Below are positions 3,231 through 41,140 of a DNA stretch of 64,000 nt, piece after piece. Within the stretch, counting starts at the first letter, position 1. Each line of letters starts with the position of its first letter. The position numbers were made by a program, and so were the translations under genes. Source of the DNA: Syncephalis plumigaleata (Eukaryota; Zoopagomycota; Zoopagomycetes; Zoopagales; Piptocephalidaceae); assembly GCA_025201365.1 (NCBI GenBank), contig JAIXMF010000014.1, positions 186,001 to 250,000 of the forward strand, given 5' to 3'. The notes under the pieces were generated by a model that saw nothing but the letters and a program-made list of their open reading frames with translations, ran no database searches and had not been told where the DNA came from.

Positions 3231-6084
3231 ATGCACGCAATGATGCAAGCAAGTCGTCCGTCTCTCTACAGAGACCAAGCCAATCTCTATGTTAACGGGC
3301 AGTATACGAACAGTCCAGATAGTACCGAACCTGGTAAGTAATACTATTATACTGCACTTGTCAGGTGCACGTACAAACAAGTGAGGGAAACATACTAATA
3401 CTCGCAACACGTGTGTAGAGAATCCATTTGAGACGGCAGAGATCATCGATGACGACAGTGTCTATGGTGTAACCGATGATTATTAGAGAATCCTTTTGAA
3501 TGTTCAGAGCTTGAATATTCGGAAGATGACAACGACAACGACGACGATGATGATGATGATGATGATCGTCCATTGTCGACTATGACATCAATCAGATTGT
3601 CAGCGGGTCCACTTTTGAATCTACAGAAAGAGGTGCATGATTGGAATCAACGTCCACGATCCAAGTCGCAAATTAATCTATCGCAACTTAACTATGATGG
3701 TGATCATTATGCATTGAATGGTAAATCGCATAGTAGCAATGGTGCATTGGCTCCTCCACCACCAAGATTACCGCCTCGTCGTGCTAGTTTCGATACATCT
3801 AGTAATAATCATTTTGTTACCACTGTTCTCGCTTATGCCAATAAGCAGAACTCGGTAAATAGAGCACAGGTAATCTAGCATAGCATAGTATAACATAGTA
3901 TATTGCATGATAACTAATCTAATAACGATACATAGACCTGGTCAGGAACAGTATCAGCGCATACGTTAGCGACAATGGATGAAAAGGAGAGAAAGCGCCA
4001 AGAATCAATATTTGAATTAATCATTACTGAACATGTATTTTTACGCAATATGATAACAGTTACTGAGGTAAGCCATATTGGAATAAATAATCTATAATAG
4101 ACATTTAATAACAGTAACAATATAATATAGGTGTTTCGTCGACCATTAGAGGCAGCTCTTTCCGCCCAAGAAATTGAAAGTGTATTTTTAAATCTAGACG
4201 AGATTATCATGTATAGTGCACGATTATTGAATGATTTACTGAGACGACAAGAATCGGATAATCGCGTGCTAACTAGTATAGGTGATATATTTACATTGCA
4301 TGTAAGTTATACTGGTCACATTGTGTATTTCTTGATTACATTAACTGAATGATTACTAGATGTCTGATATGCAATGCTTTCATTCTTATTGCTCGCGTGA
4401 GTCTACAGCAGCACGTCGCTTACAGTATCATCGTAGTCGAGATCCGCGTATTGTGGCTATTCTGCAAGAGGCACGTCAAAATCCTCGATCGCAAAAGTTG
4501 GATCTAAGCACGCTGCTCATTGAACCGATGCAACGTATCACTCGGTATAAGTTGCTATTAAAACAGGTAGATTAATGATTGACATAGCAATGAATAGATG
4601 AATAACCATGATTGTATTATCTCATAATTATAACTGTGTAAACTAGATACATCAATTGACATCGGAAAGAAGTAGAGACTATAAACAGCTGTCGAATGTA
4701 GTGGATGGACTCGAAACACTACTAGTGGAGACAAATGAATCCACGCGTGTATTAGAGAATATTGATCGTTTACGTGAAATCAATTCATGGGTGGATCTAT
4801 CTGATCTCGGCAAGGTAAAAAGATAATGTATGCATTTGCGTAGTACGACTAGTATTAATTATAGAAATGTGATTAGCATTTTGACTTGACCGGACAGACT
4901 ATTCATTTTGAGCAACGATACATCATTTTGGATAGTGTACTCGTGAAGGCAAATAGTGGTCGTAAACTACATGCCTATTTATTTACAGATATGCTCCTGT
5001 TAACACAACCACCGAAATATCGATCAACGAGTGGATATAAGAATGCCGTCTATCGAGAAGTAAGTGTTTAGGTAAAGCGCATATGAATGTATGCTAACCC
5101 AATCTATACAATTATTAGCCATTATTACTAAATGAAATTGAAATACGCGGTAATCCAACACTACGTAAATCATCAGGTTAGTTAGCATTGAGTAGAATCG
5201 TGATAAATATAATCTATTTACGAAGCAATCACCACTTTACTAGATTGCTGCTTCCAAATACTACACGATAGTAAGACTATTACGTTGAAGACCGCCAATG
5301 TTGGTAGTAAAACGAAATGGGTCAATGAAATCGTTAAAGCCAAGAAATCGTTTGAACTATCAAAGGAAATGCTTGATGGTAATATCATAGGGGAAACAAG
5401 AGAGATAATAGATTGATACTGACTAATTGATGTGTGTGCGTGCATGCGTATATGCATGCCTATCCTAATAACAATAGGTGCACCACCTCCCGAGAATACT
5501 GTACTCGGTACATTAAGCGTATTGGTATGCGAGGCAGGCGCTCTAGTCAATCCCGATCAATATGGTAACTATTACCACCGTTCAGTAGACTATCATGCAT
5601 TTTAGTTAACCCACTATTGTAACAAGCACTCCGCACCACTGTCAATGCCTATTGCGTACTTACTGTTTGCGGACAACAGAAGAGAACAAATACCATTGGA
5701 GATAGTAATAATCCACGCTGGCAAGAGGTATGTGCAACTATACGGAATGATATGCGTATCTAGTCTAAACAAGTATTTGTTCTCATTCATTAGACATTTC
5801 TATTTCCCGTTGATGATCTACGTGAGGCAATTCGAGTCGATGTCTACCATAGAATATCGAAATACAGTCAACCAGGTATGTGTGTAGCATGCTAGTTAGT
5901 CATTCATAATAGGCAATCTAATCCTTTTTTTACTACATGATGCTTAGAATTCCTCGGTAGTGCCGAGGTCAATCTCTCCACGTTGGATCATTATGGCGGC
6001 AAGTCAACAAAGACCACCTTCCGTCTAAGTAATGCTAAGCAAAGGGGAAGTGTTACCCTAAGCCTCAAGTTTGATCCAAAATAG
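3231..6084 (+). CDS. Rho guanine-nucleotide exchange factor, DH-PH-C2
   Basis: Predicted 648 aa in 13 exons, activating Rho-family GTPases at membranes. The DH (RhoGEF) domain spans exons 3-6, with SIFELIITEHVFLRNM at its start and LLIEPMQRITRYKLLLKQ, the most conserved DH helix. A PH domain follows in exons 7-9, ending KTKWVNEIVKAKK. Exons 10-13 give a C2 domain. The DH-PH-C2 order resembles the C-terminal half of intersectins, but no SH3 or EH domains are present. Exons: 3231-3333, 3487-3869, 3936-4067, 4131-4301, 4360-4566, 4647-4814, 4877-5059, 5119-5176, 5244-5378, 5478-5564, 5627-5727, 5794-5875, 5948-6084; their sum keeps frame. Exon 2 has an acidic Asp run and a proline-rich PPPPRLPPRR segment. 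The ATG at 3231 is the first in frame; 3240 and 3243 are alternatives. Exon 2 has a second acceptor at 3418 (see findings). Confidence 0.85.
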
Positions 6085-6436
6085 ATACAAGCATCTGTAT
6101 TGTATAGCATTGTTGTGGCGTTAGATATATTTTTTATTGAATTATAGTTTAAATACAATATTAATTATTCATAACCATTGATACTAATTGCATCGATGAT
6201 AATGGAATGACACTCTCATGTTACATGTCTAATTCAATAGCAGTAATTGTTCATAAGTTGTACATTCATGTGGTAGTGAGAAGAATGCTATATGGTACAT
6301 TTTAAGTAAAGGTGACCGTACTATCATATGGCTAATTGACCGGGGTAACTTATAGCAATGCTACTTTATGCATTCGGGCTGCATTACCAGTTAGTATAAA
6401 CAGGATGTCATATATGGTCTAATAGTTTAACGGTAT
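6085..6436. other. Intergenic and upstream region of micro-exon gene A
   Basis: No gene seen. Part of it (about 6205-6330) is similar to 7740-7865, with shared words such as catgtctaattcaat and gttgtacattcatgtgg. It is thus one copy of a flank repeated around this peptide-gene family. Confidence 0.5.
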
Positions 6437-6452
6437 CATCTCGGCTATAAAT
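6437..6452 (+). promoter_or_regulatory. TATA-type core promoter of gene A
   Basis: The word CATCTCGGCTATAAAT lies about 130 nt before the ATG of gene A. The same word occurs before gene B (9158) and before the broken copy C (63063), each followed by a CTCTTCTACT-rich leader. Conservation across three paralogs supports a real TATA box. Confidence 0.65.
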
Positions 6453-6576
6453 CGAGCACTTTTTGACATATTCAACTTGCCTTCTTCATACTCACTCTTC
6501 TACTTTACTCTGCTCTAGCTACTACTACTCTCGTTCTAGTTAGCTGAGCTATCGATTTCACTAGGCCAGCATCAAC

Positions 6577-7332
6577 ATGAAGTTCTCTACTGTTATCACT
6601 ATTGCTGTCGCCGTTGTCGCTGTCACCAGTATGGTCGCCGTTGAAGCTAGTCCCGTCCTGGATCGTCGTGGTATGTCTGGCCGTGACTCTATCAATTGAT
6701 GTACTAATCATAGTCTATTGCTTCATTGTCTACCGATGATTACCGATAGATAGTAATTTCATGTGTATTAAATTGTTGTTTTGATGTGCTAATCACATCA
6801 TAATATTTATCCTATTTCTTAATTTGTTAGCTCAAGATGAAGGTGAGCTATCTTGTTGATTACTACAAGCACTATACTAATCGTAATATAAATCAAATCG
6901 TATGTGTGACTTTCATTTTCAAGATGTTGTAAGCTACTATTTTGATCGTAATGCATGACTACTAATCACGTTATGGCACACGATCCACGTATACTTTTGT
7001 ATAACAGAAAGTAAATAATCATTCTGATCGCAATGCATAGCGTACTAATTAAGCGTGACACATCATTCCCGTATGTTTTTGTATGATAGGACGTAAGTTA
7101 ATACCTGATCCTAATGTACGCTTACTTATTACAGCATGATACATGATCTACATATACTTCTTTATGGTAGAGAGTAAGTTACCACTTTGACTGCAATGTA
7201 TAGCGTGTTAATCACACTACAATCTACATCATCTGGACGATAGGAATAAGCAGTAAGTAATAGCCCAACAATTAATCATACTCATACTAATCCATTATGA
7301 TTACAGAACAAAACAAGGGCATCATTAAGTAG
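6577..7332 (+). CDS. Gene A: small secreted peptide gene with micro-exons
   Basis: Exon 1 (6577-6670, 94 nt) encodes a signal peptide (MKFSTVITIAVAVVAVTS...) followed by SPVLDRR, a dibasic Kex2-like site. Candidate micro-exons: 6750-6752, 6831-6842, 6924-6928, 7008-7010, 7090-7092, 7171-7173 and 7244-7252; the last exon begins at 7307. Each lies between a CTAAY or TTAAY branch-like word plus an AG and a GTRAGT-like donor. The 5-nt exon at 6924 moves the phase, and TAA in 7244-7252 would then end a very short acidic mature peptide after RR. If the phase is instead kept by alternative choices, the last exon gives ...NKGIIK and a stop at 7330-7332. Function unknown; a processed secreted peptide is an inference. 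Splicing is predicted, not shown. Confidence 0.6.
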
Positions 7333-9157: not shown

Positions 9158-9173
9158 CATCTCGGCTATAAAT
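9158..9173 (+). promoter_or_regulatory. TATA-type core promoter of gene B
   Basis: CATCTCGGCTATAAAT is identical to the word before gene A. It is followed by a (CTCTACT)n-like leader and then the ATG about 200 nt downstream. Confidence 0.65.
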
Positions 9174-9368
9174 AAGACGCTATTGACACACTCAACTTGT
9201 CATCTTCATACTCGCTCTTCTACTCTATTCTATTCTACTCTACTACTACTACTGTTACTACTCGTATATATTATTGCTCTGTATTCTCGCTCTATTCTAC
9301 TCTCACTACTCCCTACTCTCGTTCTAGTTAACTTATCTGTCTATCCACTCCACCAGGCCAACATCAAC

Positions 9369-11767
9369 ATGAAGTTCTCTGCCGTTATTGCTATTGCCGT
9401 CGCCGTTGTCGCTCTCACCAGTCTGGCCACCGTTGAAGCCAAGCCCAATAGGATGCGTAATCGTATGTCACAGGAACAACAAGAACAATGATAATAATGG
9501 ACACTAGCTGACTCATTAATGATTGCTCGATAGCTGGCAAGTCTACCATTTGACCACAATGTCCCGTGTATTAACCATGCTGTATTACTATTTGTACATT
9601 TATTCCGTGAATAGTTGGTATGTTGTCCGTGTAATAATGATCCCATTCAATGTGCTGACTGTAATATAATCATGCTCAATCCTCATGTGTGTGTGTATCT
9701 ATTCCGATAGTCGAACGTAGGTTTGCTGATAAATAAATAAACCACCTGACATGCTACTAATCATACTGCCATATCGACACGATACATGGATCAATAGGCC
9801 GTAAGTAGTGATCATGCCATGCTGACCATCCCATTCAATGAGCTAACACACCATCCAAATGGAATTATTCCACAAATAGGTGGTACGTATGACTACTATG
9901 ACCATATCAATTGATGCACTAATCATAGTCTATTGTTTCATTGTCCACCGATGATTAGGGACAGGCCGTAAGTTCATATATACCAAATGATTGATTTGAC
10001 GTACTAATTACATTATGATGTTTATTCTTCCTATAAATTTGTTAGCACACATTCGTAAGTTAGTTTATTGACCATAACAAGTACTATACTAATCGTAATA
10101 TAAATCAAAATTACATGTGACTATTGTTTCAAGAGTTTGTAAGTGGTCATTACGATTGTAATATGTGAATGTACTGATTATAACGTGGCACATGATTTCC
10201 TGCATGATAGGCCGTAAGTAATCATTCTGGCTGCAATGAATGGATGTGCTAATTATGATATGGCACACAATCCACGTATGTTTTTGTATGATAGCATGTA
10301 AGTCATCAGTATAACTGTGAGGAATGAGTACTGACTACAATATGACATGATCCACTTATGTTCCTGCATGATAGTACGTAAGTTAACAATCTTGACCGTA
10401 GTGAATCATATACTAACTATAATACGGCATATGATCCGCGTGTGTTTTCGTATGATAGGTCGTAAGTCATTATTCTGGCTGCAGTGTATGATTATTAATC
10501 ACAATATGACACAATCCACTTATGTTTCTGTATGATAGTCCGTAAGTAATTATTTTGATCGTAGTGAATGAATGTGCTAATTATGATATGGCACACAATC
10601 CACGTATGTTTTTGTATGATAGCATGTAAGTCATCAGTATAACTGTAAGGAATGAGTACTGACTACAATATGACACAATCCACTTATGTTTCTGTATGAT
10701 AGGATGTAAGTTATCATTCTGACCGCAATGAATGGATGTGCTAACTACGATATGACACACAATCCACGTATGCTTTTGTATGATAGCATGTAAGTCATCA
10801 ATATAATTGTAAGGAATGAGTACTGACTACAATATGACACGATCCACTTATGTTTCTGTATGATAGTCCGTAAGTAATTATTTTGATCGTAGTGAACGAA
10901 TGTGCTAATTATGATATGGCACGTGACCCATGTATATTTCTGTATGATAGGTCGTAAGTCATTATTCTTACCGTAATGAATGGATATTAATTACAGTATG
11001 ACACACGATCCACGTATGTTTCTGTATGATAGCATGTAAGTTACCATTTTGCTTGTAATGAGTGATGTACTGACTATGATATGTCATATGATCCATGTAT
11101 GTTTGTATATGATAAGCCGTAAGTAGTCATTCCAATCATAATGAATGAATGTGCTAATTATGATATGACACGTGATCCATGTATGTTCTTGTACGATAGG
11201 ACGTAAGTTAACATTTTGATCGTAATCTATGAGTGTACTAACTACGATATGACATACGATACACGTATATTTTTGTATGCTAGATTGTAAGTTATCATTC
11301 TTATTGCAATGAATGGATACTAATTACAGTATGGCACATGATCCATGTATGTTCCCGTATGGTAGTGGGTAAGTTGCCATTACGATTGTAATGAATGAAT
11401 GAGCTAATTGTAACGTGGCACATGATTCCTTATGATAGATTGTAAGTTATCATTCTGGCGACAATGACTAGCACACTAATTATAACATGGCATACGATCC
11501 ACACATGTCTGTGTGTGATAGACTGTAAGTCAATATTCCAAGTGTCATCTACGATATGCTAATCACAATACGGTGTACATTAATTGAATAGCGGCAATCA
11601 TATGCCGTAAGTAATATTCCAAGTGTCATCTACGATATGCTAATCACAATACGGTGTACATTGATTGAATAGCCGCAAGCATAAGCCGTAAGTAATATTC
11701 CAACAATTAATCATACTCATACTAATCCATTATGATTACAGAGCAAGACAAGGGCATCATTAAGTAA
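9369..11767 (+). CDS. Gene B: secreted peptide gene with an array of about 27 micro-exons
   Basis: Exon 1 (9369-9462, 94 nt, same length and phase as in gene A) encodes a signal peptide (MKFSAVIAIAVAVVALTS...). Candidate micro-exons start at 9534, 9615, 9711 (6 nt), 9798, 9880, 9965, 10046 (9 nt), 10134 (5 nt), 10211, 10295, 10375, 10459, 10539, 10623, 10703, 10787, 10867, 10951, 11033, 11117 (2 nt), 11200, 11284, 11366, 11439, 11522, 11592 (15 nt) and 11673 (15 nt). All others are 3 nt. The last exon starts at 11742. Introns are mostly 77-81 nt with GTAAGT donors (GCAAGT once), CTAAY branch sites and GATAG acceptors. Joined micro-exons 1-6 spell PVVERRG, matching PVLDRRG of gene A. After the 5-nt exon the triplets read in phase 0 and are rich in His, until TAA in exon 11673-11687. 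The 2-nt site may be skipped. Function unknown. Confidence 0.65.
10139..11521 (+). repeat. Tandem intron/3-nt exon repeat array of gene B
   Basis: Sixteen intron units of about 70-81 nt, each with a 2-3 nt exon between them (3-nt exon starts 10211-11522). Unit consensus: GTAAGT, then a GTAATGAATGA-like stretch, CTAATTA branch, ATGGCACACGATCCACGTATG, TTTTTGTATGATAG. Intron lengths alternate 81/77 from 10214 to 10950, a sign of growth by dimer duplication. The units at 10298-10374, 10626-10702 and 10790-10866 are near copies. Confidence 0.8.
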
Positions 11768-11910
11768 ATATTATAGGTATTCAAGTCAAGAATGGATTGG
11801 TGCAAAACCCTTTAGTGTCCATACCATTCAAGTCATTATTCCTTGGTACAACAACAAGTATATCTACAAGATCATCATTCAATCATTTATTGAATAAATA
11901 TATATGATCA

Positions 11911-13221
11911 TTATTCCTGTTTTAATGCTTTCTCGTCATCACTGGCTGTAGTACTGACATTGTCACCATTCTGCTCTTGTTTGCTGTTACGCGGACGATG
12001 TTCAAATCGTGGTAAAGCCAAAAGAGCATATCGTTTGACGAACATTGGTAAATTACGATAGATAAATGGCGGTAATGGTACGAGTGGACTAGTACTAGCT
12101 AGATACTCCTCATAGATCGACCATGCACCTAGTCGATTCATACGTCGTGCGTGATATCGCTCGCCAAGTGGCATACCCGAAAGTCCAATAAGTATCAATG
12201 CAGTAAAGATAGGAGGCATTGCTACGCCGAGAGAAAGACCTACCACTGTTACTGTTGCTCGTTGATGCATCACTGGCCATAGCAAGGGTAGACATCCTAA
12301 TGAATGACCAAACCTATTTGAATAATTTTAATAAAAAATGATGATGATAATAATAATGATTAACAAGCGAGCACAGCTGGTGCAATGTAAAATGAAGAAG
12401 AGGATACTTGCCATAGCATGATGTCACCGAAATAGTTGGGATGACGACTCCATCGCCAAATGCCACGTCGACACAGACTAGTTGGCTCTGTGCGTGTGAG
12501 TGTATACTGGAACCGTTGCTCGTCTGCCACTAATAATAACAAGGTATAGAATTAGATGCAACGAGCTGGATTACTTGATTGCTTGCTGGCTGGCTTACCT
12601 GTTTCTATCAGCATGCCAGCAATCCAGCATGTAATGCCTACAGTATCCGTCCATTCTTGCCATGTATACGCCGCTTGTGTTGCACCTGGTGCGGCCAATG
12701 CAGCCGAAGAGCATGCAAGAGCGAGTGGCAGTACACCAAGCCATCCCCACAATGATTGTAGAACCCAGAAGAAGGTAAACATTCCTGGATCATCTCGAAT
12801 GCCATCCATACGTGGTTCCTTTCCATGCTTAATTGTACGGCGAAGTAGAAATACTGTAATAATAATGAAATGATAGTACACGAGTGAGTAGTCGTCATCA
12901 TTATCACTTTGATTGATGTCACCATTACCTCCTAGTCTTAAGGCCCACAAAGTGATACTACTGGCCAATACAAGATGACGCGGATGAAATGCCTATCGCA
13001 CAGCAAGCATGGTTAGTATGGCGCTTGAATCACTCCATGCTATTTGCCAAATATACCTCGCTTTGCCATAGAACAAGCCATGCTCCCGCAGCAAACGCGG
13101 AAGATCCGGCAAAATCAGTAAACGTATCCTTTTGAGTTAGCCAGGCATAGATGCTATACGGTATTTGATAGGTAACCACGCCGATGGCAGCAATAGATAA
13201 TCGATCAGTTAGCTGTTCCAT
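11911..13221 (-). CDS. DUF1295 / steroid 5-alpha-reductase-like membrane protein
   Basis: Predicted 334 aa in 5 exons: 13221-13057, 12992-12929, 12853-12599, 12529-12412, 12313-11911. Family hallmarks are LWALRLGG, RRTIKHGKEPRMD, the core motif GIWRWSRHPNYFGDIMLW, and SGMPLGERYHARRM near the C-terminus. The family shares its fold with NADPH-dependent 3-oxo-5-alpha-steroid dehydrogenases and isoprenylcysteine methyltransferases; the substrate is not known. Several hydrophobic helices indicate an ER-type membrane protein. The last intron fits only with a GC donor (GCAAGT at 12411), because the nearby GT sites put the conserved C-terminus out of frame. The 3' end lies about 15 nt from the end of the gene B transcript region, so the two genes converge. 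The hydrophilic Lys/Glu/Ser tail is poorly conserved. Confidence 0.85.
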
Positions 13222-35822: not shown

Positions 35823-36222
35823 TGTGGTGCGGACACATCGTCTCCATAAGACATTAATTAAAAAAGTATATAATTCACGATGTCGCTTGCAATACTTTTG
35901 CGGTTGCATTGCACGTTTGTATGTTGTGACTTACCTAACCAGATATTCATACATATATAAGCTTCTACGAAGCACGTAAATTATAATAAAAGAAGTTCCG
36001 TTTTGAAATAGTTTGTGTGTGTGTCTTATCGTTGTCCCTAGTCAGAGTTGGCTAGTGTTCTTTATACGTAGAGAGAGAAAGCTGTACGAGTGTACAGTTA
36101 GGAAAGAGTTACACGACGGATTATTACGAGCGATTCATTAAGCCTAGTTACATTGCCGCCCAACGAGCTAGGAGAAGCAACATGGCTACCCACGTCAGAC
36201 CCGTCAATAACCCCCCGCCACA
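35823..36222 (+). repeat. 5' LTR of Ty3/gypsy-type element
   Basis: 400 bp, starts TG and ends CA, and appears identical to 41174-41573. Flanked outside by AATG, which is repeated after the 3' LTR as a short target-site duplication. Confidence 0.9.
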
Positions 36223-39200
36223 ACTGGAGCCCAATGCGGGGACGGGTATTCCAATGACGAGGGACTGTAATCCTCCTCCTAGATTCACTGGAGAGAATGT
36301 TAAGGAGTTTATGCACCATTACGAACGCTACGCCGACTGGCTAGGCTGGAACAATGAGGCGAAGATAGAGTGTATCGTGAGTTATCTCACTCCAGATGCG
36401 ACGGAGCTTGTGCTCATCCACCCCGGCACGTCCACCGGCGACTGGCCGCAAGTCAAGGAAATGCTACTCACCAATTATCGTCGGCGGCTAACTACTAGGT
36501 CGCCACGTGAGGTGTTAGCAGACTTACTGCGGAAAGGATTCGACTATGACGATCCGGAGTCATATTTGTCGAGGTACGCCACAGTCACATCGTGTGTTCC
36601 GAACATGTCCGATAGCGAGAAAGCCGAGAGAGTATTCGACATCCTAGATGTGGATTTCAAGGAACGTTGCATGAATCACCTAGGCAGGAACTTTACCTTT
36701 GAGGAACTGCGGGAAGTGATCTTAGACTTGAAGTACAAGAGTAACCTTATCGGGAAGTCTTTGAAGAGGAGCGAGGAGTCCAAGGAAGCCCAGTCACGTA
36801 AGCAAGAACACAAGGAGCGTGACGACGAGCAAGATCTGTACGACAAGGTGGCTAAGATGGTATTACAAGTGGTCGAGAAACGAGAAAACACCAAAAAGGT
36901 TCAGCGTCCCATGCGGTGTATTTACTGCGATGCTACTGACCATTGGAAGCCGGAATGCACGACGTTGACTGAGGATCTACGCAACGGGATAGTTAGGATG
37001 GTGGAAGGAAAGGTAGCATATCCCGACGGCGGTCACATACCTCTCAATAGCGGACGAGGCGGCATGCGCAGTTTCATTACCGAAGGAGTCAAGGTTCGGC
37101 ATATCGCGCTCCAGGAACGGGAGAGACCGGTCGGATATGACGTATGTTGGCAGGAGATGACCAACCCGGAAGCGGTAGCACCCGAAATCCTGGTCAACGA
37201 TCCATTTCAAGTGAACCACAAGCGTGCGAGGGTAGGTGCTGATCGGGAACAATCGGATGCTATGGTAGTGGATACTCGCGAAGCCGGTACAATGACGGAA
37301 AAGGCGAAGCGTGCACCACCTACTTTTCAGTATAGAGCACCCGTAGAGGAAGGAAGAGTGCCGGAAGAGGTCATCAATAGAGTGTTGCAACAGTCGCAGG
37401 TGACTATGAGTTTCGATGAGTTCATGGTCGTGTCACCACCAGCTAGAAAGGTCGTTAATGAAATGGTGTCAAGGAAGAGGGTCCCGATTGAGCCGAGTAC
37501 CAACATGGTAGCCACTTACCAAATAAGGGAAGGGATCGAAGATCCATACGACAACGTGGTCGAGAGGAAGGAAGTCACGCGAGTTGCCAGACCTACTGCG
37601 GCAGTAATGGGTACGGTTGCGGGTATCCCCGTGAATATTGTCGTAGATCCTGGATCTGAGATCACGATCATGTCTGGACGTTTCTACGACAGGATCGGTC
37701 GACTACCTTTGGACACCTCCAAGGTGTACAGCATGGGTAACGCTTCTGGTACCAGTTCGACGGCTAGAGGGTTGTGTCCCAATGTGCCCATAGAAGTTGG
37801 CAGCGTGCGAGTTCCTGCTCATATCGTGGTGATCGATGGCACTCCGTTCGACGCGTTGGTTGGTATGCCCTGGCTGGAACAAGCTCAGTGGGAGATCAGA
37901 CGTGAGGGCAACGGTTCTTGGTATTACTTACGTGATAGTGAGCACTCCGTGAGGTTCCCTGCGGCACCTCTGGCTCCAATGAGTAACAGGCACGAGAATT
38001 ACGTCCGACTACACTCGAACAGGATTACGTTGGACTCCGGTGCGGATGATGAGCTGGACAAGGACGAGGAATTGTTAGGCGTGGTCACGGTGAGAAGCTT
38101 TTCCGACAACGAGGAGACTTACATGACGTGCGCGGCGAAGTACAAGCCTGTCGGTAAGAAGAAGCTACCAATAGCGGTGCCGGTACCATCGAACGAGCGT
38201 CCTCAAGAGTTGGCAAGTGTTGTGCGACCTTTGGCGAAGAGGCTTACGGAGGAACGCCTTGCGGCAATGGTGATCGGTGACGACGTCCTGCGAAAGGAAG
38301 AAGTAGCGTTTTTCAAGCAGCAATTACTTACCGTGGATCAAGCCTTTGCGTTCAATGACGAGGAGATGGGCCTGTTACGTCCTGAGGTGGAGCCGCCTAT
38401 CAGGATACCTACCGTGAAGCATGAGCCGTGGTATCAGCGATCCATACCTATCCCGAGGGCGATCTTCGATCAAGTGGTGGAGCTGCTGCGTGTCAAGATG
38501 GAGAGTGGAGTCATCGAGTCAAGCAGTGGAGCCTACAGTAACCGGTGGTTCGTGATAGCCAAGAAGGACAAGAAGAAGTTGCGCTTCATACAAGACTTGC
38601 AGCAAGTTAACTCAGTAACCGTCAAGAATGCTAATACGCCACCGTTGAGTGAAGAACTGATAGAAGATGTGTCCGGTCGCGCCATTATATCTACGTTCGA
38701 TCTGTATTCTGGGTATGACCAAATCCCCATTGATGTGCGTGACAGAGATATCTTTGCGCTCAATACACCTATTGGGTTGGTACGTATGACGAGATTGCCG
38801 ATGGGTTGGTGCAATAGTGTCGGCATCTTCCAGCGCATCGTCACTAAGGTGTTGAGACATCATATGCCGGAGAAGGTTGCTATATTTGTCGATGATGGTG
38901 TGGTGAAGGGACCTATGGAGGCTGAGCAACACGAGGTGCTGCCTGGAGTGAGGAAGTATGTGTATGATCATGTGCTTGATGTGGTGAAGGTGATGGCGAC
39001 ACTGAAGGAGGCTGGTTTGACGGTGAGCGGAATGAAGTGCAGATTCGGCATGAGCGAGGTGGAAGTGCTAGGTTATCAGTGCACTCCTAGTGGAAGGACA
39101 GTGACCGAAGAGAAGGCTGAGAAGATACAGAAGTGGCCAGTACCTGTTAACAAGACGGAAGTGCGATCGTTCGTGGCTTGTTGCGCGTTCTATAGGCCAT

Positions 39201-41140
39201 TGATATCGCAGTTCTCTATCGTCGCGGAGCCGTTGTATCATCTTCAGAAGAAGTCAGTGCCGTTCTATTGGGGCGAGGAGCAGCAACGCAGTTTCGAGGA
39301 ATTGAAGAGACGAATTTCCACTTACCCGGTGATTACACCTCCTGATTATGGTACTGGTGCGAAGTTCTTGGTGCTTACGGTCGATGCCAGTCCCGTAGGT
39401 GCTGGTGCTGTCCTGGGACAAGAAGGAGCCGACGGAATAAGGAGAGCGGTCAGATATGAAAGCTGCTTATTCAATCCTACGCAGAGGAGATACGCGCAGG
39501 TAAAGAGGGAGTTATACGGTCTGTATCAGATGGTGAAGAAGCTGCGGAAATATGTGCACGGCGTGCATTTCATCATAGAGACTGACGCTCGGTCGGTGAT
39601 CGGTATGTTGAAGAAGCCGGACTTACCGAATGATGCAGCAAGTAGATGGGTAGCTTATCTTGCGTTGTTCGATTACGAAATATGCCACATTCCCGGTGAC
39701 AAGAACGTAGTGGCGGACGCGCTGAGCAGGACCACTCTAGATGAGCGAGAGCTATCGGACAGCGGAGACGAAGACGTGCTGTGGAACTACAGGATCGTGG
39801 AGCTAGATGAGGAAGAAGAGGAGATGTCTGTCGACAAGGTACAACAAGTTAGCGCTGATAGCACGAAAGGTGACCCATATTATCAATTGTTACACTACCT
39901 GAGCAAGGGCTACTTACCAGAGGGTTCGACGGACGCGGATCGGCGGAGGATACGGGAACAAGCAAAGAAGTTCTTCTTGCATGATGGATTGCTGTTCAAA
40001 CGCGACAAGAGAGGTATGCCTAAGCGAGTGATCGAGGAGGCCAAAGAGCAAGTCAGAATAGTAGTAGCGGTACATCAAGGACACCCCTTCGCGCATCGAG
40101 GAGTGGAGTCTACTTACCGCCTGTGCAGCAATCGATTTTATTGGCCTAAGATGTACGATACCTGCAAGGAAGTGGTGAAGACGTGTGACGCCTGCCAGCG
40201 ATGCGGACATCGAGAGGAAGTGGAAGAGTTGAAGCCATTCTTGGGTTCTACTTTGTTCAAGCGGGTAGGAATTGACTTGATGAGGATGCCACGTTCGGAG
40301 GACGGCAAGGAGTATCTAGCGGTAGCCAGGGACGACTTTAGCGGATGGGTAGAAGCTAGAGCGCTAGAGAAGAATACGGCGGTAGAAGTGTACAAATTCT
40401 TGTACGAGGAGGTTATATGCAGGTTCGGAATACCGGGGGAGGTGATAGCGGATAGAGGAGAACTGTACGGGAAGCAAGTGCGTGAAGCAGCTATGGAGGA
40501 TGGTATCGTGCTGCACTTCACTACTGCTTATCATCCGCAGACGAATGGCATGGTGGAGCGAGGACACCAAGAGTTGAAGAGAGGGTTAGTCAAGCTAGTA
40601 GGAGAAGACGTAACGCAGTGGCCTAAGTACTTACATGCTGTACTGTGGGCTGATCGAATAACGACGAAGAGGACGACAGGAAGAAGCCCATATCAGCTGG
40701 TATACGGACAGAGTTGCGTACTCCCGTTCGACATAGAAGAGGAAACCTGGTTGACAATACCGTGGAAGAAGGAGGTGTCAACGGAAGAATTGTTAGCAAC
40801 ACGTGCTGAGCAATTATTAGTCAACGCGTGGGTAAGAGAAGGAGCGGGGGTGAAATTAGACAGGGCAAGACGTCAGAACAAACGCTATTACGATGACAAG
40901 AAGAACGTGAGAGAGGGACGATTGACGGAAGGTGACATGGTGCTGATGAGGCAACAAAAAGTCGTACCTAGGTACCATGGCAAGCTAGTCGCCAAGTGGA
41001 GCGGTCCATATGTAGTGGTTGACTGTCCAGCACGAGGAGTGTATCTGTTGGCAGAATTAGATGGTACAGTTATGAAGACAAGCGTGTCCGGTCATCGCCT
41101 TAAGCGATATTTTGCGCCAATGAAGTTGGCTGCTGAATGA
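36182..41140 (+). CDS. Gag-Pol polyprotein of the LTR retrotransposon
   Basis: One open frame of about 1650 codons carries all parts in Ty3/gypsy order: a Gag-like N-terminal region, a zinc-knuckle-like motif, a retropepsin-like protease region, reverse transcriptase, RNase H, then integrase with an N-terminal zinc-binding part and core. The order RT-RNase H-integrase separates it from Ty1/copia. Gag and Pol share one frame with no visible boundary. The ATG used by this frame lies inside the 5' LTR, so the first residues are encoded by LTR sequence. Confidence 0.92.
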   Translation: MATHVRPVNNPPPQLEPNAGTGIPMTRDCNPPPRFTGENVKEFMHHYERYADWLGWNNEAKIECIVSYLTPDATELVLIHPGTSTGDWPQVKEMLLTNYRRRLTTRSPREVLADLLRKGFDYDDPESYLSRYATVTSCVPNMSDSEKAERVFDILDVDFKERCMNHLGRNFTFEELREVILDLKYKSNLIGKSLKRSEESKEAQSRKQEHKERDDEQDLYDKVAKMVLQVVEKRENTKKVQRPMRCIYCDATDHWKPECTTLTEDLRNGIVRMVEGKVAYPDGGHIPLNSGRGGMRSFITEGVKVRHIALQERERPVGYDVCWQEMTNPEAVAPEILVNDPFQVNHKRARVGADREQSDAMVVDTREAGTMTEKAKRAPPTFQYRAPVEEGRVPEEVINRVLQQSQVTMSFDEFMVVSPPARKVVNEMVSRKRVPIEPSTNMVATYQIREGIEDPYDNVVERKEVTRVARPTAAVMGTVAGIPVNIVVDPGSEITIMSGRFYDRIGRLPLDTSKVYSMGNASGTSSTARGLCPNVPIEVGSVRVPAHIVVIDGTPFDALVGMPWLEQAQWEIRREGNGSWYYLRDSEHSVRFPAAPLAPMSNRHENYVRLHSNRITLDSGADDELDKDEELLGVVTVRSFSDNEETYMTCAAKYKPVGKKKLPIAVPVPSNERPQELASVVRPLAKRLTEERLAAMVIGDDVLRKEEVAFFKQQLLTVDQAFAFNDEEMGLLRPEVEPPIRIPTVKHEPWYQRSIPIPRAIFDQVVELLRVKMESGVIESSSGAYSNRWFVIAKKDKKKLRFIQDLQQVNSVTVKNANTPPLSEELIEDVSGRAIISTFDLYSGYDQIPIDVRDRDIFALNTPIGLVRMTRLPMGWCNSVGIFQRIVTKVLRHHMPEKVAIFVDDGVVKGPMEAEQHEVLPGVRKYVYDHVLDVVKVMATLKEAGLTVSGMKCRFGMSEVEVLGYQCTPSGRTVTEEKAEKIQKWPVPVNKTEVRSFVACCAFYRPLISQFSIVAEPLYHLQKKSVPFYWGEEQQRSFEELKRRISTYPVITPPDYGTGAKFLVLTVDASPVGAGAVLGQEGADGIRRAVRYESCLFNPTQRRYAQVKRELYGLYQMVKKLRKYVHGVHFIIETDARSVIGMLKKPDLPNDAASRWVAYLALFDYEICHIPGDKNVVADALSRTTLDERELSDSGDEDVLWNYRIVELDEEEEEMSVDKVQQVSADSTKGDPYYQLLHYLSKGYLPEGSTDADRRRIREQAKKFFLHDGLLFKRDKRGMPKRVIEEAKEQVRIVVAVHQGHPFAHRGVESTYRLCSNRFYWPKMYDTCKEVVKTCDACQRCGHREEVEELKPFLGSTLFKRVGIDLMRMPRSEDGKEYLAVARDDFSGWVEARALEKNTAVEVYKFLYEEVICRFGIPGEVIADRGELYGKQVREAAMEDGIVLHFTTAYHPQTNGMVERGHQELKRGLVKLVGEDVTQWPKYLHAVLWADRITTKRTTGRSPYQLVYGQSCVLPFDIEEETWLTIPWKKEVSTEELLATRAEQLLVNAWVREGAGVKLDRARRQNKRYYDDKKNVREGRLTEGDMVLMRQQKVVPRYHGKLVAKWSGPYVVVDCPARGVYLLAELDGTVMKTSVSGHRLKRYFAPMKLAAE

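Follow-up and report, generated by a model that had tools for sequence, protein, structure and literature searches.

The locus analysed here lies on the forward strand of a 64,000-nt stretch of DNA (contig C46:186001-250000, hereafter the window) of the mycoparasite Syncephalis plumigaleata (Zoopagomycota), at positions 9369..11935, and a previous interpretation of the window (hereafter the sequence-only reading) had taken it for a secreted-peptide gene built of successive 3-nt exons. Upstream of the gene we find the TATA-box-like TATAAATA of the family promoter described below (9167..9174, +), in a region that is kept in the intronless paralog L039. The first exon (9369..9462, 94 nt) encodes the predicted signal peptide MKFSAVIAIAVAVVALTSLATVEAKPNRMRN and ends in a C that is the first base of the next codon (phase 1). 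Between this exon and position 11742 we called 26 micro-exons, using a splice parse agnostic to exon length together with reading of the sequence, and 21 of these are exactly 3 nt long (in order CTG, TTG, GCC, GTG, GCC, GCC, CAT, TAC, GTC, TCC, CAT, GAT, CAT, TCC, GTC, CAT, GAC, ATT, TGG, ATT, ACT), the other five measuring 6 nt (one exon), 9 nt (one), 5 nt (one) and 15 nt (two). The 21 triplets agree with the sequence-only reading, which had counted about 27 micro-exons; one further unit has a broken acceptor.

The leader micro-exons (9534..9967, +; CTG 9534-9536, TTG 9615-9617, TCGAAC 9711-9716, GCC 9798-9800, GTG 9880-9882 and GCC 9965-9967) read, once joined, ..VVERRG, with a dibasic site. 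They are followed by a 9-nt micro-exon called by the parse (CACACATTC, 10046..10054, +) and by the 5-nt micro-exon AGTTT (10134..10138, +; acceptor TTTCAAG), which turns phase 1 into phase 0; the latter was chosen by a phase-aware parse, the length-agnostic one having given TTT at 10136-10138, and paralogs have equivalent 5-nt exons with a CAAG acceptor. Eleven single-codon exons in phase 0 then extend over 10211..11035 (+), starting at GCC 10211, CAT 10295, TAC 10375, GTC 10459, TCC 10539, CAT 10623, GAT 10703, CAT 10787, TCC 10867, GTC 10951 and CAT 11033. The degenerate unit GATAAGCC-GTAAGT at 11117..11118 (+) has lost the usual acceptor AG, would yield a 2-nt exon and is presumably skipped in splicing. 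Five further single-codon exons lie in 11200..11524 (+; starts GAC 11200, ATT 11284, TGG 11366, ATT 11439 and ACT 11522), and the region 10200-11407 is a tandem repeat with periods of 84, 164 and 328 according to Tandem Repeats Finder. The coding part closes with two 15-nt exons: CGG CAA TCA TAT GCC (11592..11606, +), which duplicates the exon after it with the stop TAA reading TAT (81-nt tandem repeat, 94% matches), and the terminal coding exon CCG CAA GCA TAA GCC (11673..11687, +; stop 11682-11684), which was assigned by reading and by the terminal-TAA check described below, the parse having taken only the first of the two. Because coding ends, on this interpretation, at this TAA, the exon that begins at 11742 and ends approximately at 11935 (+) is 3' untranslated region rather than the last coding exon (...QDKGIIK*) formerly placed there; its start lies directly after the stop exon in the intronless paralog L034, with one extra base in L037. 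The predicted precursor has 67 residues, MKFSAVIAIAVAVVALTSLATVEAKPNRMRNPVVERRGPHIQFAHYVSHDHSVHDIWITRQSYAPQA, assuming that the 5-nt exon 10134-10138 and both 15-nt exons are used and that the unit at 11117 is skipped; its end was joined by reading, since the automatic model ran into the intron after ACT. The peptide contains no cysteine, and hence lacks the C..CC..C motif found in many of its relatives. The gene presents the family plan, with a signal exon, a phase-fixing leader exon (here of 5 nt), 3-nt exons and a TAA before the last intron.

Taking all the results together, we consider it highly probable that this locus belongs to a large S. plumigaleata family of genes for secreted and probably dibasic-processed small proteins, many of them rich in cysteine, in which most residues after the leader are each encoded on a 3-nt exon of their own. 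Searches of the own assembly (32.6 Mb, 383 contigs) yielded 180 matches to 801 bases of the array and 151 matches to a signal-exon pattern (part of exon 1, at most 3 mismatches), the reversed control of the latter giving 0. The pattern ATAG-N(k)-GTAAGT followed by the intron start occurs 997 times genome-wide at k=3, as against 3 times at k=2 and 8 times at k=4 (6 of these 8 being 3-nt units behind a CAG acceptor), with 0 matches for each reversed control, which excludes chance as the source of the AG-NNN-GT plan. At k=6 there were 324 matches, and among the matches listed most look like 3-nt units in which ATAG was matched 3 nt upstream. Matches to these patterns are not counts of distinct genes because some contigs look like copies of others. 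The signal-peptide exon and the run of 3-nt exons are present as first described, and the phenomenon is larger than was noted, the plan recurring throughout the genome.

To define exons we trained donor and acceptor weight matrices on 662 introns from 21 loci (the window gene and L009-L028), with introns filtered to 55-110 nt, and parsed each gene under a uniform exon-length cost, that is, with no preference for any length. The parse gave 620 internal exons of 3 nt out of 691, and 670 of the 691 were multiples of three; the remaining 21 measured mostly 5 nt (10 exons) or 2 nt (7), with one of 11 nt, and many of these 5-, 2- and 11-nt exons stand last in the leader, where they shift the phase from 1 to 0. 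In seven loci outside the training set (L041-L047), 274 of 299 exons were 3 nt long, L041 having 77 single-codon exons among its 81 micro-exons. Intron length varies (mode 80, range 55-101 in the 662 training introns) while the exon is constant at 3 nt. Donors read GTAAGT in 617/773 cases, and the branch A lies about 37 nt from the donor and about 42 nt before the YAG acceptor (624 introns). AG is depleted upstream of the acceptor, being absent from the last 43 nt in 502/637 introns as against 246/637 for nt 7-49. A simpler parse that took the nearest AG was replaced by the splice-score parse; it produced false exons of 1-2 nt and 17-30 nt because AGN and NAG triplets contain AG and because GTATGT occurs inside introns. 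The final parse admits 5-nt exons with CAAG acceptors, that of L030 (CGAAA) being still left out. Two loci have structures of their own: the C-terminal part of L014 has 18 exons of 6 nt in place of 3 nt (two codons each, many of them Pro/Arg/Lys pairs), which yield a basic proline-rich tail, and the array of L028 contains about 2 kb without micro-exon units (~5100-7165 in reverse-complement coordinates), which seems to be an insert within an intron, because the flanking codons match those of the paralog L016.

The triplets behave as codons. Not one stop was found among the 620 triplets, where 18.5 were expected from position-specific composition, and the seven held-out loci also gave 0/274 against 4.1 expected; the same joined triplets contained 3/599 stops when read one base later and 62/599 when read two bases later. 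In 21 of the 23 loci that have the pattern, a conserved terminal TAA before the last intron was in phase 0 of its exon (30 loci were examined, and in the other 7 the stretch covered lacks it). All 30 modelled loci begin with a hydrophobic leader of the MKFS.. type, so that secretion is predicted, and examples of the predicted products are ...ASPALERRALVQVPCEDGFVRMPEFRNKCCKIMEGHNARSTVCAAEE for L016 and ...RRAVVERRAPQAIRGARDVGDAAIDAVGGLADTILGG... for L041. Adjacent cysteine codons, each on its own exon, were present in 12/23 loci and in 4/7 of those held out (two close paralog pairs counted as four), and the arrangement Cys...CysCys...Cys is encoded in 16/30. The intron between the paired cysteine codons is 86% alike across 12 loci as compared with 73% for random introns, and the Cys-Cys unit is therefore orthologous and its codons kept. 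An alignment of 10 mature parts, chosen for having the motif, showed that the spacing between C, CC and C varies; three of the 10 were read with a 2-nt unit omitted. By reading, such an omission restores C..CC..C in three loci (L009, L023 and L026) and, in L009 and L023, also the in-frame stop.

Codon choice within the triplets also bears the mark of splicing constraints. A triplet ending in YA creates, with the G of the following donor, the sequence YAG, which is a rival acceptor. With long open frames from the window and from two intronless members serving as reference for ordinary codons, such codons (NYA) made up 6/168 of the triplets as against 587/1666 in ordinary frames (p = 7e-22, amino acids offering a choice). 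Likewise AAG was found 4 times and AAA 33 times, the ordinary ratio being 90 to 55 (p = 2e-8), and CAG 0 times and CAA 16 times, a difference that by itself does not reach significance (p = 0.08). The triplets show no avoidance of GAG, which makes a poor acceptor.

The genome of S. plumigaleata also carries members of this family with one uninterrupted frame (L031, L034, L037 and L039), and these permit an examination of the predicted joins. From ATG+94, precisely where exon 1 stops in most of the split genes, L037 (contig C130; identical to the National Center for Biotechnology Information (NCBI) protein P0016 save for the last residue) reads CTGTTGTCGAACGTCGTGCTC, which is identical at 20/21 positions to the joined CTG-TTG-TCGAAC-GCC-GTG-CTC of L010 and of L015, a locus of the window gene's subfamily, and at 18/21 to the window gene's own leader set. 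The corresponding values for L039 are 18/21 with the L015/L010 set and 16/21 with that of the window. In L034 (NCBI P0009) we find CGTCGTG CCC CTCAAGAGC where L027 has exon 1, CTC and CTCAAGAAC, and its 3' end has TAAGCA joined to AGCAAGAC, as predicted for the last junction, reading CTAAGCA AGCAAGACGAGG. The promoter of L039 aligns with that of the window gene over -247..0 (176 identities, 15 mismatches, 60 gaps) with a score of 217, as compared with at most 65 for 30 shuffles, and the TATA box is common to both; the upstream match is weaker in L031 (144), L034 (97) and L037 (94). A simple retrocopy origin of L039 is hence disfavoured, because promoter sequence, TATA box included, is shared to about -247.

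Gene models at NCBI contain codons joined in the same manner. The partial model P0004 (BDF22DRAFT_685769) contains 40/43 of the single-codon exons predicted after the leader of L030, and P0001 (BDF22DRAFT_685685) contains 30/32 of those in the part of L029 that was analysed, or 38/41 when compared with the close paralog L027. The exons absent from P0004 are TGC, CCT and one TGT, and those absent from P0001 are TGC, GGA, CCT, the 9-nt CTCAAGAAC and the 6-nt ACACCT. Of these eight omitted exons, one is followed by the donor GTAAGT, six by a different donor, and one is ambiguous (either of two adjacent TGT), while about five exons with non-GTAAGT donors are retained in P0001 and P0004; the omissions may represent real skipping or the choice of a predictor. 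When family members served as queries in protein searches, the matches were S. plumigaleata proteins together with proteins on short contigs, two of the searches having scored the best 8000 word-sharing candidates. Among the short-contig proteins some continue RRA..., as spliced (P0017, P0025, P0028 and others), and some RRG..., as unspliced DNA (P0021, P0027, P0029, P0030), and the contigs may be RNA or DNA. Several of them (P0017, P0023, P0025, P0028, P0031, P0034) have a similar leader and a long mature part, Lys/Glu-rich or other, in one continuous frame.

A different use of the same exons, already suggested in the sequence-only reading, would be isoform diversity, the exons being real and the single codons being skipped at random or under control, so that a single locus would give many peptides one residue apart. 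The eight micro-exons after exon 1 that P0001 and P0004 leave out (six single codons, one 9-nt and one 6-nt exon) are omitted with the frame intact, as the skipping of any 3-nt exon would be, and most of them have weak donors, 6/8 differing from GTAAGT. However, a predictor that rejects weak donors would produce the same omissions, about five weak-donor exons are kept in the very same models, some of the omitted exons encode conserved cysteines, and donors in the family are mostly GTAAGT (617/773). We therefore regard isoform diversity as an unlikely purpose of the array. The possibility that the copy in the window has begun to decay as a pseudogene, within a family that otherwise functions, draws on the one unit that has lost its acceptor AG, on the absence of cysteines and on a non-canonical leader donor (GCAAGT), which is also found in relatives. 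The frame is nonetheless open from the ATG at 9369 to the TAA at 11682 when the dead unit is skipped, and the promoter and leader exons are conserved, so that we judge this possibility to be quite improbable.

The two other explanations, both named in the sequence-only reading, deny the triplets a place in the message, and both are disfavoured because neither accounts for the comparative evidence. Under the first, the array would be a minisatellite within one long intron, so that splicing would link exon 1 straight to the 3' exon and no triplet would ever be expressed; the array is indeed a tandem repeat by sequence (periods 84, 164 and 328), and joining exon 1 straight to 11742 keeps a readable frame (..NQQDKGIIK*). 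Such a repeat gives no reason for stop-free triplets (620 + 274), for the C..CC..C motif, for the avoidance of YAG or for an exon length that stays fixed while intron length varies, and the leader and terminal joins are continuous in intronless paralogs and joined codons appear in NCBI models, which makes this explanation extremely improbable. Recursive (ratchet) splicing with loss of the triplets, suggested by the likeness of AG-NNN-GT to a ratchet point whose acceptor and donor stand 3 nt apart, is likewise extremely improbable, since lost triplets need not be stop-free, encode kept cysteine pairs or match intronless paralogs, and since here 3 nt under codon constraint separate the acceptor and donor that ratchet points juxtapose with nothing retained; ratchet points are not known to have an exon of this kind.

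Several observations speak against our interpretation of the family and have to be set beside the evidence that favours it. The micro-exon splicing is something we infer from sequence. Exons of 2 nt inside the array break the frame in L009, L018, L023 and L026, and such units possibly reflect recent decay, tolerated skipping or assembly error; the window copy carries its own degenerate unit with a broken acceptor (11117-11118). L026 and L027 have their terminal TAA out of phase. Automatic models free of in-frame stops reached the conserved TAA in 10/23 loci and in 5/7 of those held out, the others, the window gene among them, being ended by intron read-through, a shifted stop or the end of the stretch. 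The synonymous codons used show no more than a moderate correlation with those of ordinary genes (r = 0.47). By total codon usage the true frame has only a slight advantage over the +1 frame (-0.033 vs -0.068 bits per codon), so that whole-codon usage was discarded as an uninformative test of frame. The intronless copies support the leader and terminal joins and not the middle of the array, and they test exon order weakly, because CTG, TTG and GTG resemble each other: 2/719 other orders also reach 20/21 for L015, and for the window set, where the true order reaches 18, other orders reach 20 and 19. The NCBI models, finally, may stem from transcripts or from prediction. P0001 and P0004 are without the six predicted single-codon exons and two longer micro-exons listed above, and without the L030 leader exon TCG, where the P0004 leader reads into the intron; the final 13 residues of P0001 match no predicted exon; and P0002 follows the L019 codons QEWNEF and then runs into an intron. 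Weighing both sides, the interpretation as a secreted-peptide gene of successive 3-nt exons, with which the sequence-only reading had begun, is strongly supported by comparative evidence to which that reading had no access, from paralogs, intronless copies, codon and splice-site constraints and NCBI models.

The window contains a second, short family member (6577..7306, +), with a signal exon at 6577-6670, micro-exons at 6831-6842 and 6924-6928, the single codons AAA 7008-7010, GAC 7090-7092 and AGA 7171-7173, a terminal GAATAAGCA at 7244-7252 and a last intron that ends at 7306. Elsewhere in the window, a single 1652-aa open frame at 36182-41140 has, on reading of its translation, retropepsin-, reverse-transcriptase- and integrase-like stretches and resembles a Ty3/gypsy element, and a 475-aa open frame at 292-1719 has motifs that we presume to resemble those of a transposon-encoded TnpB/Fanzor-like protein.

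Comparison of close paralogs gave a mixed picture of how the arrays evolve. In the pairs L012/L025, L016/L028 and L029/L027, pooled, 7/300 triplet bases differ as against 475/7775 intron bases (p = 0.004). The pair L015/L043 showed the reverse, with 25/99 triplet bases and 181/2690 intron bases differing (p = 2e-8); 13 of its 33 codons have changed, 12 of them non-synonymously and 9 at two or three positions, while the adjoining introns differ by 6.7% and the core LAGDEFIKxWxASVPSNA has been kept. Triplets were also more diverged than introns in the more distant pairs L009/L026, L013/L024 and L010/L013. Because triplets are slower in three pairs and faster in L015/L043, we make no general claim of purifying selection, and the codon changes in L015/L043 may reflect strong diversifying selection or a codon-replacing process. 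At the level of whole units, L028 has one more ATG unit than L016, and same-codon units within a locus are more alike than others (0.30 vs 0.22), as expected from recent unit duplication. The idea that units of the same codon share their introns by descent as cassettes was not retained in general: the signal reached z 13.0 upstream and 7.7 downstream with leader units included, and z 3.5 upstream and 1.2 downstream in the variable region. We claim cassette descent only for the Cys-Cys units and, inside a locus, for duplicates of recent origin.

On the basis of these results we propose the following working of the genes. One promoter would give a pre-mRNA of a few kb, in which the introns of about 80 nt would be recognised singly by intron definition, probably in the order of transcription; intron definition is proposed since exon definition would require an exon longer than 3 nt. 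Each splicing step would add one codon to the growing exon. The leader exon of 5 (or 2, or 11) nt brings phase 1 to phase 0, and from there to the conserved TAA each triplet would be read as a whole codon. The product, as deduced, would combine a conserved signal peptide with a mature part that varies, in most cases with a dibasic site as well, and would be secreted and cleaved, with disulfides that we infer for the mature peptides. Within the arrays the intron-plus-codon unit would be duplicated, lost or altered, a gain of such a unit being seen between close paralogs, and the peptide would in this way change one entire residue at a time with its frame intact. In their growth the arrays probably behaved as minisatellites that are spliced. 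The most likely role of the products, to judge from signal peptide, cysteine pattern and variability, is that of secreted effector-like peptides in the attack on other fungi or in competition. We further advance, as a tentative idea, that the intron-plus-codon unit may be a device for evolvability: homologous introns of about 80 nt would let unequal exchange or unit duplication insert, delete and replace single residues in frame, a mycoparasite could thereby remodel its secreted peptides, and units with weak donors might be skipped to give isoforms. The codon pattern of L015/L043, which looks as if whole codons had been replaced, was noted in this connection.

If transcripts confirm this structure, the exon has been reduced in these genes to the codon, and this tens of times per gene (77 in L041). 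Several matters would become testable: the way in which the spliceosome deals with a series of exons that are each too short for exon definition, the pairing of the correct acceptor with the correct donor among dozens of near-identical sites, the origin of such structures, given intronless paralogs in the same genome, at least one of them with a related promoter, and the question whether residue-by-residue protein evolution can make use of introns as spacers. The gene models of a sequenced fungal genome would, moreover, capture the family in part only.

Placing the family among known systems requires taking into account both exon size and intron structure. Schistosome micro-exon genes (MEGs) encode secreted proteins with a conserved signal peptide and have many short exons, mostly multiples of three (PMC10526429). 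The sequence-only reading had put the MEG exons at 6 nt and more, which agrees with the text of the review (6-81 bp), whereas its abstract gives 3-81 bp; the exons are mostly of 15 bp, 10-20 per gene, and the introns are of 0.1-5 kb (PMC10526429). To the extent covered by the portion of that review used here, the S. plumigaleata genes resemble MEGs in the signal peptide, and in short exons that are multiples of three (670/691), the skipping of which would stay in frame, and differ from them in having single codons as exons, introns with a mode of 80 nt and a tandem array, in place of exons mostly of 15 bp and introns of 0.1-5 kb. It is by these features of exons and introns, rather than by comparison of sequences, that we set the two apart. 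The bicycle genes of aphids are a fast-evolving family of secreted, effector-like proteins known by their many small exons, and a related single large gene with more than 100 micro-exons was found in 11/12 aphid genomes (PMC9168663). As described in the part of that article drawn on here, their internal exons are almost all in phase 2, with about 17 exons on average, and tandem intron-codon units do not figure in it; the single-codon exons of S. plumigaleata stand in phase 0 after a phase-1 leader and lack this phase-2 feature. Because exon size, phase and intron length differ, we file the family neither under MEGs nor under bicycle genes. The toxin superfamilies of cone snails have a conserved signal peptide and a variable, cysteine-framed mature part on normal exons, a likeness that we take as evolutionary only, with no claim of relation. 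The SP7-like effectors of arbuscular mycorrhizal fungi are likewise secreted, with internal repeats and a conserved intron, but they act on host splicing, and one-codon exons are not among the features given in the sections of the paper used (PMC11333574).

Exons as small as these have nevertheless been encountered one at a time. Isolated exons in the class of 1-3 nt are reportedly present in CYP621A of Fusarium and in RPS24. For the 1-nt exon of Arabidopsis APC11, exon definition was considered very unlikely, and intron definition with recursive, stepwise removal was proposed (PMC4674806). These cases, as far as the portions of the sources at hand describe them, show that spliceosomes can use exons of 1-3 nt; they differ in that one or a few such exons lie in an otherwise normal gene and do not make up whole mature proteins. 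The argument for intron definition made in that part of the APC11 study would apply tens of times per gene in the S. plumigaleata family. In agreement with the sequence-only reading, which knew of no gene with a run of 3-nt exons, neither such a run nor genes of this kind in Syncephalis were described in the open-access literature searched, subscription papers and preprints lying outside its scope. Exons of 1-3 nt being thus known singly, and runs of them not being found in that literature, we rate the S. plumigaleata family as the micro-exon kind of gene taken to its extreme.

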